Positions 28,328 to 34,114 of a stretch of 64,000 nucleotides of DNA are shown here, one piece after another (within the stretch, counting starts at the first letter, position 1; each line of letters starts with the position of its first letter). The position numbers and the translations under genes are program-made. The notes under the pieces were generated by a model, which ran no database searches, was not told the origin of the DNA, and saw only the letters and a program-made list of their open reading frames with translations. The DNA lies in contig CANGEV010000002.1 in assembly GCA_947452995.1 (NCBI GenBank), forward strand, positions 65,172 through 129,171, written 5' to 3'. Origin of the DNA: Chitinophagales bacterium. Lineage in GTDB: Bacteria; Bacteroidota; Bacteroidia; Chitinophagales; CAIODY01.

Positions 28328-28918
28328 ATGACGGAACAGCCGCAGCGCATAGTGATTTTTGCAAGTGGGAGAGGCTCGAATGCTGCTGCCATCTGTGCCT
28401 ATTTTCACGCCTACGATCATATTAATGTTGCTGGGATTTTTACGAATAAAGCTGATGCAGGTGTTATTGAAGTAGCGAATAAATTTCGTGTTCCGCATTA
28501 TGTGTTTAATCGCGAGGAATGGCGTTCACCGTTATTTAATATTCAGAATTATATTGCTGAAAAAGTAGATTTGATTGTGCTAGCCGGTTTTTTGTGGCAG
28601 GTGCCTGATTCATTCTTGCAAAATCATGACGCACCCGTTATTAATATTCATCCGAGCTTATTGCCGAAGTACGGTGGTAAAGGGATGTATGGCATGCATG
28701 TGCACGAGGCGGTGAAGGCGGCAGGTGAAACAGAAACAGGGATCACCATTCATAAAGTAACCACGCAATACGACGAAGGTCCTGTCTTATTTCAGGCTAA
28801 ATGTGCGATTGCCCCTACAGACGACGTCGATACTATTCGAAAGAAAGTACAAGGCCTAGAGTATATTCATTTCCCGAAGGTGATTGAGTTTTTGCTTACT
28901 GCGTTAAGGATTGGTTAA
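28328..28918 (+). CDS. purN: Phosphoribosylglycinamide formyltransferase
   Basis: Third step of purine synthesis, adding a formyl group from 10-formyl-THF to GAR. GRGSNA near the N-terminus binds phosphate, and the catalytic Asn-His pair sits in INIHPSLLPKYGG with the catalytic Asp in YDEGPVLFQ. Length 196 is normal. The track start is a TTG; ATG 28328 two codons later is the natural start. The stop codon opens directly into the purine-rich repeat tract. Confidence 0.95.
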   Translation: MTEQPQRIVIFASGRGSNAAAICAYFHAYDHINVAGIFTNKADAGVIEVANKFRVPHYVFNREEWRSPLFNIQNYIAEKVDLIVLAGFLWQVPDSFLQNHDAPVINIHPSLLPKYGGKGMYGMHVHEAVKAAGETETGITIHKVTTQYDEGPVLFQAKCAIAPTDDVDTIRKKVQGLEYIHFPKVIEFLLTALRIG

Positions 28919-29105
28919 AAGGGAAAAGGGAAAGGGAAAAGGGGATCCCGATGCGAAGCTATCGGGAGGGAAAAGGGGAAAAGGGGAAAAGGGAAAAGGG
29001 AAAGGGAAAGGGGAAAAGGGAAAAGGGAAAAGGGAAAAGGGAAAAGGGAAAGGGAAAAGGGAAAAGGGAAAAGGGAAAAGGGAAAAGGGAAAAGGGAAAA
29101 GGGAA
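28917..29105. repeat. GGGAAAA purine tract with embedded hairpin
   Basis: Low-complexity DNA built of GGGAAAA/GGGAAA units. From 28964 to 29105 the + strand has 142 nt without a single pyrimidine and about twenty G-runs of three or more separated by three or four A's. This meets the usual G-quadruplex consensus many times and could also form a triplex. A hairpin TCCCGAT...ATCGGGA (28946-28967) interrupts the left part. Open frames of 60-109 codons on both strands here are consequences of the repeat and not genes. Confidence 0.9.
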
Positions 29106-29163
29106 TCACCATTCACTATTAACCATTCACTATTCACTCCCGATTGCATCGGGATCACCATTA
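29106..29163. repeat. ATTCACTATT micro-repeats and TCCCGAT hairpin
   Basis: Reverse-strand copies of the GTGAATAGTGAA motif (ATTCACTATTAACCATTCACTATT) run into a perfect hairpin TCCCGAT-TGC-ATCGGGA (29138-29154). Read on the - strand it aligns over about 25 nt with the element at 37081, differing at two bases. Confidence 0.75.
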
Positions 29164-31635
29164 TCACATTTCCTCCATCGATGGGCCACCTTCCATACGG
29201 CCTCTGCCAGGACGTTTGCCGGCCATCTCATTCGACATAGTACCAAAACGATAAATGGCAGTTAACATGACTATGCCTCGGTCGCGACGACGAATAGCGT
29301 GTTGGTAGAAGTTTGGTCCAGACGTTGTCATCTCCATACGCATCTGGCTCAACGCATCCATTACACTTAAGGTGAGGTTCAAACGATTTTTAAATAAGTC
29401 ATTTTTCCATCCTCCTGAAATTACAAGTGTAGAGGCAAATTGCCCTTGCGCAATCACAGTAGGTGCTTGGTAGAAAACAGAAGCTTGTAATGCACTGAAC
29501 TTCGCCAGACGATAGTTGGTATTGAAACGACCCGACCAAGAAACAAAATTATTTTGCAAGTCGGCTTCGATGTTATTTGCGTTGATCTTCGATTCATACA
29601 CATTCACGTTCAACATCGCGTCCCACTTCTTGCTGAATGTCACATTGCCCGTCGCCTCTAAGCCGTAGTTATCGCTAGAATAGGCGTTTAGAAAAGAGAT
29701 AAGCGAAGTTCCGTCAGCTAATACACTTCTATAACGAATTTGTAAATTATTGCTATGACGGTAATACAGACTTGCATTGATACTATATTTTTCAAGTGTC
29801 CTTTGATAGCCTAATTCAATGGAATGCACCAATTCCGGCTTCAAGCCAGGATTACCTTGACGTTTGTTTTGTGGATCACTAATATCAAGAAACGGATTTT
29901 GACTTTGTGGATTTGCACGGTTGATACGTCGACTATAGCTCAATTGTATTTGATCTTTTTTACTAAGTGGCTGACGAATAATCGCTGTAGGGAAGAGGTT
30001 GAGATAACGGTTCTTTTGGAAGAAGCCAGTATTCGTTAGGTAGATATCTTGAAGCGTATATTCACCGCGTAAGCCCAACTGATAGGCGAAGGTTTTGTAG
30101 AGCCCCGACTTCGTTAGATAAGCCGCTGAGATTTGCTCCGTAAACACGAAATGGTTGCTGATAGCTGTGTTCATATATGCACCATCCATATTTATATCAG
30201 GATAAAGAAGGCCTAAATAATCTGCATCGCTATGACGACGTACCACACGTCCCCCTAATTCATATTTTCCGAATTCACCATTGGGAACAGTATAGTCGAT
30301 TTGCGCATTGATCATCTGTACATGGCCCATGCTGCGAATGCCACTGTGTGCAAACTGCTGGCTCATGGAATCTTGCTGCATATAATCCTGGCGGCCATCG
30401 CGCGACATATCCGAAAAGGTTATATCGGCGTTGAGTTCTTCTTTCGGCGTTGGGAATTTTTTACGTAAGTTGAAGTTGATGTCCGCATTTTGGTTGTCGT
30501 TGACCTGATCATTCGCCCTAAAAATGCTGTTGGTATATTGTTTGTCGGCACTCAAATAACGATAAATAATGCGTTCTGGTTGTAATTCCTTCTCCAGGTT
30601 TAGATTTATACGTGTGCCAATCGTAGTGTATTTATCAAGGGTGTATTCTGCGCCTGCACCAAGCAAATGATTTTTGTTTTCAGATGGACTTTTTGATGTC
30701 TGGAGCATATAGTACATGCTATCTCTCAAATACGTCTCGCGGTAGCTAGAACCGCTTCCACGACGGTGTTCGTCTTTTCCAGTATAACTACCATAGAAGT
30801 TCCATTTTTTGTTGCGGTAGCTCATATTTACTCCGCCTGTATATTTGTCGATTGTACCAGCAGAGGCCGTTGCTTGTCCATTAAACCCTTGCAACTTGTT
30901 TTTCTTCATCACGATATTGATAATCCCCGACATCCCTTCAGCAGAGTATTTGGCGCTTGGATTCGTGATCACTTCGATGCTTTCAATGGAGGCTGCAGGA
31001 ATGCTGGAAAGCACACTTTTTTTGTCGCTTCCCAAGATGCTGCTCGGACGGCCATCGATGAGAATCGTGACATTGTCGTTACCGCGTAAGGAGATTTTTC
31101 CATCAATGTCGACATTGACGCCAGGCACCTGACGGAGCACATCGTTACCTGTACCGCCTGCTGAAACGAGGTTACGTTCGTTGTTGTAAACACGTTTGTC
31201 GAGGTTTTGAACGAGCATTTGTTTCTCCGCCGTGATCTGCGCTTGGCGTAAGCTGTTTTGATTTTTACTGATTAAAATACTGTCAAAGCTTTTATTGGGT
31301 GCGTTGGGTACTAATAAGAAGGCTTCCGAGATAAAAGGGTTATAACCTACATAACTCACTTTCAAGGTCATTTTGCCCACAGGAATTTGTGCAATAGAAA
31401 AATTGCCTTTTTCATCACTTACACCACCCGCCACGACTTTGTTTTCGCGAGCCGAGATTACTTCAATAACAGCATAGGCTAAAAGCTCTTTACTTTCTTT
31501 ATCGTAAATTTTGCCGTTTACGGAGCCGATGCTAGGGCGAACGCCTCCTGGAGGCATATTGCCTTGCATCTGTTGGGCAAAAGCAGTATTAAAAACGAGA
31601 CTTAGAAAAATAATAACAGGGGCTAGGTTTTTCAT
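29164..31635 (-). CDS. TonB-dependent outer-membrane receptor family protein
   Basis: Outer-membrane protein of 823 residues, predicted to import or bind a substrate with energy from TonB. After a signal peptide (to AFAQ) comes a carboxypeptidase-regulatory-like beta-sandwich (about 37-115, VNGKIYDKESKELLAYAVIEV), then a plug domain (about 125-235, NVTILIDGRPSSIL, IESIEVITNPSAKYSAEG) and a long barrel. It is the group often labelled outer membrane beta-barrel family. The C-terminus is unusual in ending after the last strands with a Gly/Met/Arg-rich tail (RPGRGRMEGGPSMEEM). The substrate is unknown and no SusD-type partner is adjacent. Confidence 0.9.
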   Translation of the reverse strand: MKNLAPVIIFLSLVFNTAFAQQMQGNMPPGGVRPSIGSVNGKIYDKESKELLAYAVIEVISARENKVVAGGVSDEKGNFSIAQIPVGKMTLKVSYVGYNPFISEAFLLVPNAPNKSFDSILISKNQNSLRQAQITAEKQMLVQNLDKRVYNNERNLVSAGGTGNDVLRQVPGVNVDIDGKISLRGNDNVTILIDGRPSSILGSDKKSVLSSIPAASIESIEVITNPSAKYSAEGMSGIINIVMKKNKLQGFNGQATASAGTIDKYTGGVNMSYRNKKWNFYGSYTGKDEHRRGSGSSYRETYLRDSMYYMLQTSKSPSENKNHLLGAGAEYTLDKYTTIGTRINLNLEKELQPERIIYRYLSADKQYTNSIFRANDQVNDNQNADINFNLRKKFPTPKEELNADITFSDMSRDGRQDYMQQDSMSQQFAHSGIRSMGHVQMINAQIDYTVPNGEFGKYELGGRVVRRHSDADYLGLLYPDINMDGAYMNTAISNHFVFTEQISAAYLTKSGLYKTFAYQLGLRGEYTLQDIYLTNTGFFQKNRYLNLFPTAIIRQPLSKKDQIQLSYSRRINRANPQSQNPFLDISDPQNKRQGNPGLKPELVHSIELGYQRTLEKYSINASLYYRHSNNLQIRYRSVLADGTSLISFLNAYSSDNYGLEATGNVTFSKKWDAMLNVNVYESKINANNIEADLQNNFVSWSGRFNTNYRLAKFSALQASVFYQAPTVIAQGQFASTLVISGGWKNDLFKNRLNLTLSVMDALSQMRMEMTTSGPNFYQHAIRRRDRGIVMLTAIYRFGTMSNEMAGKRPGRGRMEGGPSMEEM

Positions 31636-31967
31636 AAAAAAAGAGTGGTCCCAAAGTTCGGAAAAATTAGCGTTCGATTGCCTTTTTAACTAAATAATTG
31701 ATAAATAATGGAGGGGAGGGGTAATAATTTGTGCTAGACGCGCGTTGTTTTAAAGATGCACGAATTAATTCGTGCATCTTTAGGGGCGGGACGCGGTATT
31801 TTACAATGCTAATTTCAAGCAATATCAAACGATTCGCATGCGTAAATAGAATTATCTGACATCTTGTCTGCGTTTTTTTTGATTTATTATAGGTTTTTGG
31901 CCAAAAAGTGTTGTTCAGAAATTCAATTGAGTGATAAAGCCAAATGGAATAATTGTTGTTGACGTAA
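31636..31967. other. AT-rich divergent gap with a long palindrome
   Basis: The 332-bp gap between the divergent TonB receptor and an orphan ORF holds no supported gene. It contains a perfect 32-bp palindrome (separate entry), a G-rich GGGGCGGGACGCGG segment just after it, and otherwise A+T-rich DNA with stops in all frames. Promoters for one or both neighbours must lie here, but I see no clean TTTG/TAnnTTTG pair. Confidence 0.5.
31751..31782. promoter_or_regulatory. Perfect 32-bp palindrome, possible operator
   Basis: TAAAGATGCACGAATT is followed directly by its reverse complement with no loop. There is no T-run on either side suited to termination, and no gene ends here, so binding by a dimeric regulator is more likely than termination. 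Function is inferred. Confidence 0.6.
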
Positions 31968-32507
31968 ATTAAAATATATCAATATAAAAAAAATAAATTA
32001 AAAACTTTTGCTGTTGGAGCCTTAACTTATGCTGGTTTAAAATCTGTTTCGAGAAGTGTAGATCCTTACACCAGAACCTTTGCTGGGTTTATAGTTTCTG
32101 GTGCTTTAGCTCTTTCTGTAAATCCAAACCACCGATTATTAGGATGCGTAGTAGGTGTCGCTGCTTCACTGCAAATTTTCGATACCTTTAAAGGTGGGCG
32201 CTTGGTAGTAAATAATTTCAATCGTAAAATTTATATTCTTGATGAAAAATTGGGTGTTTCTGAACTCTTGCCAGGTCAATTGCCGAGTAACTTTATTCAT
32301 GGATTAACCTTTGAAGGTATGAAAGGTGTTTTTAAGGTCTCTGATGGAGTTTATATAAGGATGAATGAAAATGGCATGGTTGACTATCCTTTTGGGTTAA
32401 GTAAAATGGTCAATTTGTGTGTACGTGATGCTGGTTACAAGAATTATAATTGGATTAGAATGCAGCAGGATTCACGTTGGAGGGAGCTGTATTCAAAATC
32501 TATATAG
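31968..32507 (+). CDS. Orphan ORF without a canonical start (unknown or decayed gene)
   Basis: I do not recognise this protein. The track gives 101 residues from a TTG at 32202, but the same frame stays open back to 31968 (179 codons) and reads like real protein. A basic start (YKKNKLKTFAVGALTYAGL) is followed by two hydrophobic segments (TFAGFIVSGALALSV and LLGCVVGVAASLQIF) and then a soluble part with GVYIRMNENGMVDYPFG. No ATG or GTG exists in that upstream frame, only ATA, ATT or TTA codons. Either a non-standard start is used, or an upstream start was lost by mutation, for example in the nearby A8 run. It is A+T-richer than its neighbours. Confidence 0.5.
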   Translation: MKIYQYKKNKLKTFAVGALTYAGLKSVSRSVDPYTRTFAGFIVSGALALSVNPNHRLLGCVVGVAASLQIFDTFKGGRLVVNNFNRKIYILDEKLGVSELLPGQLPSNFIHGLTFEGMKGVFKVSDGVYIRMNENGMVDYPFGLSKMVNLCVRDAGYKNYNWIRMQQDSRWRELYSKSI

Positions 32508-32581
32508 ATTAAGAAATCAAGCGAATTTGTCCTCCTTTCAGTGAATCCTTTTGTGTATCTTAGCAAGGTAAAACAATCAAT

Positions 32582-34114
32582 ATGGATATCGCAAATTTCT
32601 TGACCGAATTAGGTATTAAAAGTGAAAATAGCGGCGTTAGTACTGGCCGCGAATGGATGACAGGAAAAGGAGGGCTTTTGAGCTCTTATTCTCCAACGGA
32701 TGGTAAGCTTATTGCTACCTGCACTGCTGCATCTACCGACGAGTATGAAGCTGCCATCGCAAAAGCAGAAGAAGCGTTTAAAATTTGGCGTAATGTACCA
32801 GCACCAAAGCGTGGTGAAATCGTTCGTCAAATGGGCGACGCGTTCCGCAAACATAAAGCGGCTCTAGGTGCACTCGTTTCTTATGAAATGGGGAAGTCGT
32901 ATCAAGAGGGTTTGGGAGAAGTTCAAGAAATTATTGATATCTGTGATTTCGCAGTTGGTTTAAGCCGTCAGCTTTATGGCTTAACGATGCATTCAGAACG
33001 TCCGAATCATCGTATGTACGAGCAATGGCATGCAATCGGGATTGTAGGTATTATCTCTGCTTTCAATTTCCCTGTTGCCGTATGGTCGTGGAACAGTATG
33101 TTGGCGTGGGTATGTGGTGATGTGTGTATTTGGAAGCCAAGTGAAAAAACGCCTTTATGTTCGATTGCCTGTCAAAATATTATTCAAGAAGTTTTAGCAA
33201 ATAATAATTTACCAGAGGGATTGAGTGTGATTGTCAATGGTGGTCGTGAAATCGGAGAACGTCTTGCGGCAGATACGCGCATTCCTTTAGTCTCTGCAAC
33301 AGGTTCTACGCGTATGGGTAAAGCAGTTGCGTCGAAAGTAGCAGAACGCCTTGGTCGTAGCTTGCTTGAACTAGGTGGTAATAACGCCATCATCGTGAGC
33401 GAACATGCCGATTTAAAAATGGTATTGACGGGTGCTGTATTCGGAGCCGTAGGTACTGCTGGTCAGCGTTGCACCACAACACGTCGTATCATCGTGCATG
33501 AAAGTATCTTTGAAAAAACAAAACAAGTATTAGCCTCTGCTTATGCGCAGATCGTTATCGGTAACCCATTGGATGAAAAGAATCATATGGGACCATTAAT
33601 CGATAAAGATGCGGTAGCGATGTATAACAGTGCAATTGAAAAGGCCAAAGCAGAAGGTGCGAAAGTGATAGTAGAAGGTGGCGTATTGAGCGGTGCCGGC
33701 TACGAAAGCGGTTGCTACGTGAAGCCTTGTATCATGGAAGTAGAAAACCATTATGCCATCGTGCAACACGAAACCTTCGCTCCGATATTGTATGTCATGA
33801 AGTATAATACGATAGAAGAAGCCATCGGGATGCAGAATAATGTACCGCAAGGATTGTCATCTGCCATCTTCACTGGCAACTTACGCGAGGCGGAATTGTT
33901 CTTGAGCGTGAATGGTAGCGACTGTGGTATTGCGAATGTGAATATCGGAACAAGTGGTGCGGAAATTGGCGGTGCTTTCGGCGGTGAGAAAGAAACGGGA
34001 GGTGGGCGTGAAAGTGGCTCTGACGCGTGGAAAGCATATATGCGTCGTCAAACCAATACGATCAACTACGGTACACAATTACCGTTGGCACAAGGTATTA
34101 AATTCGACTTCTAA
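32582..34114 (+). CDS. ALDH7-type aldehyde dehydrogenase (aminoadipate-semialdehyde dehydrogenase-like)
   Basis: NAD-dependent aldehyde dehydrogenase of the antiquitin group, which oxidises alpha-aminoadipate semialdehyde (piperideine-6-carboxylate) in lysine breakdown. The catalytic Cys is in TAGQRCTTTRR (about residue 300) and the general-base Glu in LELGGNNA; SAFNFPVAVWSWN and the nucleotide-binding SATGSTRMGK are in place. Length 510 is usual. The substrate is inferred from family resemblance, and no other lysine-degradation gene is adjacent. The next gene starts directly after its stop codon. Confidence 0.92.
   Translation: MDIANFLTELGIKSENSGVSTGREWMTGKGGLLSSYSPTDGKLIATCTAASTDEYEAAIAKAEEAFKIWRNVPAPKRGEIVRQMGDAFRKHKAALGALVSYEMGKSYQEGLGEVQEIIDICDFAVGLSRQLYGLTMHSERPNHRMYEQWHAIGIVGIISAFNFPVAVWSWNSMLAWVCGDVCIWKPSEKTPLCSIACQNIIQEVLANNNLPEGLSVIVNGGREIGERLAADTRIPLVSATGSTRMGKAVASKVAERLGRSLLELGGNNAIIVSEHADLKMVLTGAVFGAVGTAGQRCTTTRRIIVHESIFEKTKQVLASAYAQIVIGNPLDEKNHMGPLIDKDAVAMYNSAIEKAKAEGAKVIVEGGVLSGAGYESGCYVKPCIMEVENHYAIVQHETFAPILYVMKYNTIEEAIGMQNNVPQGLSSAIFTGNLREAELFLSVNGSDCGIANVNIGTSGAEIGGAFGGEKETGGGRESGSDAWKAYMRRQTNTINYGTQLPLAQGIKFDF

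Follow-up and report, generated by a model that had tools for sequence, protein, structure and literature searches.

Bacterial genes can lose their start codons, and start-loss pseudogenes that arose by a one-base deletion retain an intact body and the marks of past purifying selection, have a sister orthologue with a normal start, and carry a single small lesion at the start itself. A different class of gene starts without AUG by design. The AUU start of infC and pcnB in E. coli is rare, conserved and used for control, and initiation on AUA or AUU is weak in that organism. An intermediate situation is represented by the lambda cI gene, which with a one-base deletion is functional in E. coli from a non-natural start codon (PMC6397469). 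In Bacteroidetes, AUG is a key start signal; initiation there is tuned by sequence context (A at -3) and low structure without Shine-Dalgarno (SD) pairing, and stray AUGs are avoided in the vicinity of starts (PMC6847099).

The start-less gene described here lies in the window, by which we mean the whole 64,000-nucleotide stretch of Chitinophagales DNA that was analysed. It resembles the start-loss pseudogenes in all of the respects listed above and differs from them in that its body bears no further lesion, which suggests that the event was very young or an error, and in that the gene is known from assembled sequence alone. As in infC and pcnB, an in-frame near-cognate codon is the sole candidate start; here, however, the relatives have ATG, and ATT and ATA are simply what stands upstream. 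The gene is like the frame-shifted cI gene in that one base is deleted ahead of a frame that is otherwise intact, but the host here is a different one with SD-less initiation.

Results

An open frame with the probable remains of a start codon

The open frame (Table 1) follows directly upon TAA at 31965-31967. Its coding part runs from 31968 to 32504, and it closes with TAG at 32505-32507. Our reading of 31968-32507 bears out the statement of the initial annotation that no ATG, GTG or TTG occurs before codon 79, which is the first TTG, at 32202; the first in-frame ATG stands at 32319, and there is a CTG at 32169. Ahead of the gene body the near-cognate candidates are ATT at 31968 and ATA at 31974. 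A weak start at this ATA is possible, and would lengthen the ancestral N-terminus by a few residues. The run of eight A residues (A8) to which the initial annotation had drawn attention is present.

Table 1. Positions of the start-less gene, its candidate start signals and its surroundings within the window
Feature	Position	Strand	Remarks
TonB-dependent-receptor-like gene	29164..31635	-	divergent conserved neighbour; name read from the sequence by eye
Perfect 32-bp palindrome	31751..31782	.	dispersed hairpin element with 16 sites in this genome; lies outside the gene
TGGAATAA leader motif	31945..31952	+	shared with the sister, 31 nt ahead of the start in both
Start-less gene, open frame	31968..32507	+	179 codons plus TAG; has an orthologue and homologues
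ATA	31974..31976	+	sole in-frame near-cognate start with A at -3; AAA just before
Probable place of the lost ATG	31984..31986	+	from DNA alignment with L002; homologue ATG aligns here
A8 run	31986..31993	+	beside the lost base
Aldehyde-dehydrogenase-like gene	32582..34114	+	downstream conserved neighbour; name read from the sequence by eye

Among 100 genomes chosen as relatives, a match was found in four, the window's own genome counted. A genome of the same genus (G002) carries an orthologue with 69-70% amino-acid identity at the same place (G002:C81, JAPJNH010000149.1, 'Chitinophagales bacterium isolate MAG22'), which is flanked by the same divergent and downstream neighbours and aligns with the start-less frame over its full length. 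Over 173 codons (NG86), pS between the two is 0.62 (dS about 1.3) and pN 0.16, with a dN/dS of 0.136, and the differences at codon positions 1, 2 and 3 number 32, 20 and 84. The syntenic full-length orthologue and these two patterns of divergence show that the frame is a real coding frame and not a product of chance. Unique replacements are of the same order on the window and sister branches, with no consistent excess on the window branch: they are commoner on the window side with most outgroups and on the sister side with four. A few residues that are otherwise conserved have been replaced in the window but are retained in the sister, such as D111 (now H) and N119 (now K). Constraint has thus been kept through most of the divergence, and any recent relaxation was at most slight.

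Further homologues of the gene sit in other Bacteroidota, and scanning named prokaryote genomes yielded 20 homologue loci. Every homologue with a complete N-terminus has an ATG directly ahead of a Lys/Asn-rich leader, and this ATG aligns to 31984-31986 of the window; the N-truncated homologues are L026 and L007, a paralogue of the window gene. The initial annotation had proposed a homologue search with inspection of the starts, and had named homologues beginning at the position of 32202 as a result that would count against a start-less gene. None of the 20 loci starts there, and the ATG that those with a complete N-terminus carry at the position matching 31984 supports the broken-gene reading.

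At this position the window retains the first two bases, AT (31984-31985), which run at once into the A8 run. When the window DNA is aligned with that of the sister, the leader is ungapped over the 31 nt from TGGAATAA, a motif also common to several of the cassette homologues described below, to the sister's ATG. One single-base gap falls exactly at the ATG/A8 junction, or may equivalently be placed within the A run, and there is no other gap in this part of the alignment. The other refuting result named in the initial annotation was an indel that would join the frame to a normal ATG, and this gap is such an indel. Slippage on the A8 run, whether ribosomal or transcriptional, was rejected because no ATG, GTG or TTG opens into the run in any of the three frames, so that slippage cannot restore a standard start. 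The ATG was most likely lost through a one-base deletion, or through a one-base error of assembly; a substitution combined with a loss inside the A run would produce the same letters. The locus therefore has three of the features that define a start-loss pseudogene, namely an orthologue with a normal start, a lesion that removes the start, and no alternative standard start for the full frame. Between the two readings of the initial annotation, a gene started by AUA or AUU and a recently broken gene, the one-base gap and the homologue ATG speak for the second, and nothing was found to support the first.

The gene's surroundings and its dispensability

In a third member of the genus (G001) the flanking genes are about 170 bp apart, with neither the gene nor the palindrome between them. 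The window's own genome (G000) has two paralogues on contig C4, one of which (L007) is missing roughly the first 20 codons. Because the G001 flanks are without the gene and one paralogue is without its N-terminus, the gene is dispensable in the genus, and the same two observations make a real loss at the window locus credible. The C4 paralogues are distant ones, arranged as a tandem pair (L007 and L008, G000:C4:151987-153073) whose second member is undamaged; in the sister species one intact copy stands alone (G002:C112). At the far side of the receptor gene, low-complexity short repeats (translated GKGKREKGKGKREK...) occupy 28904-29170, between the ends of the purN-like and receptor genes.

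The initial annotation had also remarked that the start-less frame follows a 32-bp palindrome. The palindrome is there, but it is of a dispersed kind, and nothing visible ties it to the start codon. Matching of its core with up to two mismatches gave 16 sites in the window's genome, as against two in the sister species, one of them at this very place. Apart from the window site, those in the window's genome are on contigs C2, C4, C6, C8, C9, C10, C13, C14, C17 and C18. The core GAATTAATTC is fixed, changes in the arms are compensated (e.g. CTGCACG...CGTGCAG and ATGCAGG...CCTGCAT), and the nearest long frames are convergent at about half of the sites examined. Such convergence is what a bidirectional terminator-like or REP-like element should show; the dispersal, the compensated arms and the convergent frames do not support a gene-specific operator.

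The protein and its family

An AlphaFold2 model built on 19 family members was confident (mean pLDDT 87, pTM 0.75). It predicts three helices in residues 2-69 of the modelled chain, of which the first is less confidently modelled, and a small beta domain accompanied by C-terminal helices. A membrane-attached accessory protein is our best guess, in view of the hydrophobic helices and of the gene's patchy distribution. Searches of the PDB by sequence and by fold gave no significant match to the protein, its model matched no viral fold, and PHROGs, NCBIfam and PADLOC returned nothing significant; for the gene there was no relative in viral contigs and no match in plasmids. Rfam had no match over 31600-32600, and no site of the Bacteroidota promoter pattern lay near the gene; across the window this pattern barely exceeded chance. 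The helical N-terminal part shows a weak likeness to the Tim17/Tim22/Tim23 family (PF02466), membership of which we rejected: the score was 16.9 bits against a gathering cut-off of 32.7, and one of the 19 members matches.

Many of the homologues in freshwater Bacteroidota MAGs lie between GTTATGCCCA on the upstream side and TGGGCATAACAGC on the downstream side, behind which comes an imperfect palindrome. These bounded units (in L010-L022, e.g. L013:4613-5560 and L022:4870-5560) have the appearance of gene cassettes that carry attC-type sites. In L013, one unit next to the homologue resembles, as read by eye, a HigB/XRE toxin-antitoxin pair.

Discussion

Our preferred explanation, to which we give a probability of about 0.62, is that the frame belongs, as an accessory gene, to an uncharacterised Bacteroidota family, and that deletion of a single base where its ATG adjoined the A run has recently abolished this start codon. 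One deletion at this point would both remove the ATG and shift the frame of the gene relative to the upstream sequence. Since Bacteroidota ribosomes do not rely on SD pairing and the AUG carries much of the signal, its loss should largely silence the frame, and we infer that the mRNA would yield little or no full-length protein. A recent loss would also account for the gene body still looking intact. Both the reality of the loss in the organism and the loss of expression are here deduced from the sequence.

The organism may instead have a normal ATG, with the base having been lost in calling or assembly beside the A8 run. We regard this as unlikely, yet it deserves serious weight: a one-base loss adjoining a homopolymer is a classic type of error, the run is one of just two A runs of at least eight in the 64 kb window, the rest of the gene is under normal constraint, and with a single genome of the species compared one local error could have occurred. 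Against it, the genome, which is in 36 contigs, has an estimated completeness of 99.96% and contamination of 0.02%, and the signs of dispensability in the genus are independent of the lesion. Moreover, a comparison of the window with the G002 contigs C81 and C148, which covered about 57 kb of sister sequence, showed no other frame break in 41 gene matches. The start-codon exceptions among these 41 were a gene cut by the window edge and a receptor gene, whose mechanically called first ATG is further upstream in the sister; start differences in two other window genes were apparent only, each having its own ATG nearby. The lack of other breaks favours, at the level of these comparisons, a real mutation over a generally poor assembly.

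A working gene that starts from AUA (31974) or AUU (31968), either by leaky rescue or under tight control in the manner of infC and pcnB, is improbable. The ATA is in frame, would add only a short tail, and is preceded by AAA, which supplies the A at -3 that is favourable in Bacteroidetes (PMC6847099), and there is a precedent in E. coli, where a gene with one base deleted was rescued by a non-natural start (PMC6397469). What a regulated AUU or AUA start should show, however, is conservation of the rare codon among orthologues, and the orthologue and homologues use ATG at this place, which argues against a conserved regulated start. The known weakness of AUA and AUU in E. coli tells against this too, and SD-less Bacteroidetes have no SD to compensate. 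It is similarly improbable that the deletion is real and that SD-less Bacteroidota ribosomes still translate the gene from AUA 31974 or another non-standard codon, a natural rescue by the A-rich leader. Finally, the true start might be TTG 32202, the first standard start codon, so that the C-terminal domain alone (101 amino acids) is made. This we consider extremely improbable, given that the 78 codons upstream are conserved in homologues (with D32, P33, T35 and R36 invariant) and encode the three predicted helices, and that no homologue starts at that position.

Loss of the ATG by a real deletion is thus the reading that we carry forward, and the window gene is mostly a clean worked case of start-codon loss. 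Mechanical ORF calling takes TTG 32202 as the start and returns a shortened 101-residue protein; comparison puts the ancestral start at 31984, its ATG lost. The family to which the gene belongs is itself uncharacterised, combining three predicted helices with a small beta domain, and its members are often found in cassette-like units. If the deletion is true, the locus would constitute a natural experiment on the tolerance of SD-less Bacteroidota ribosomes to loss of the AUG.
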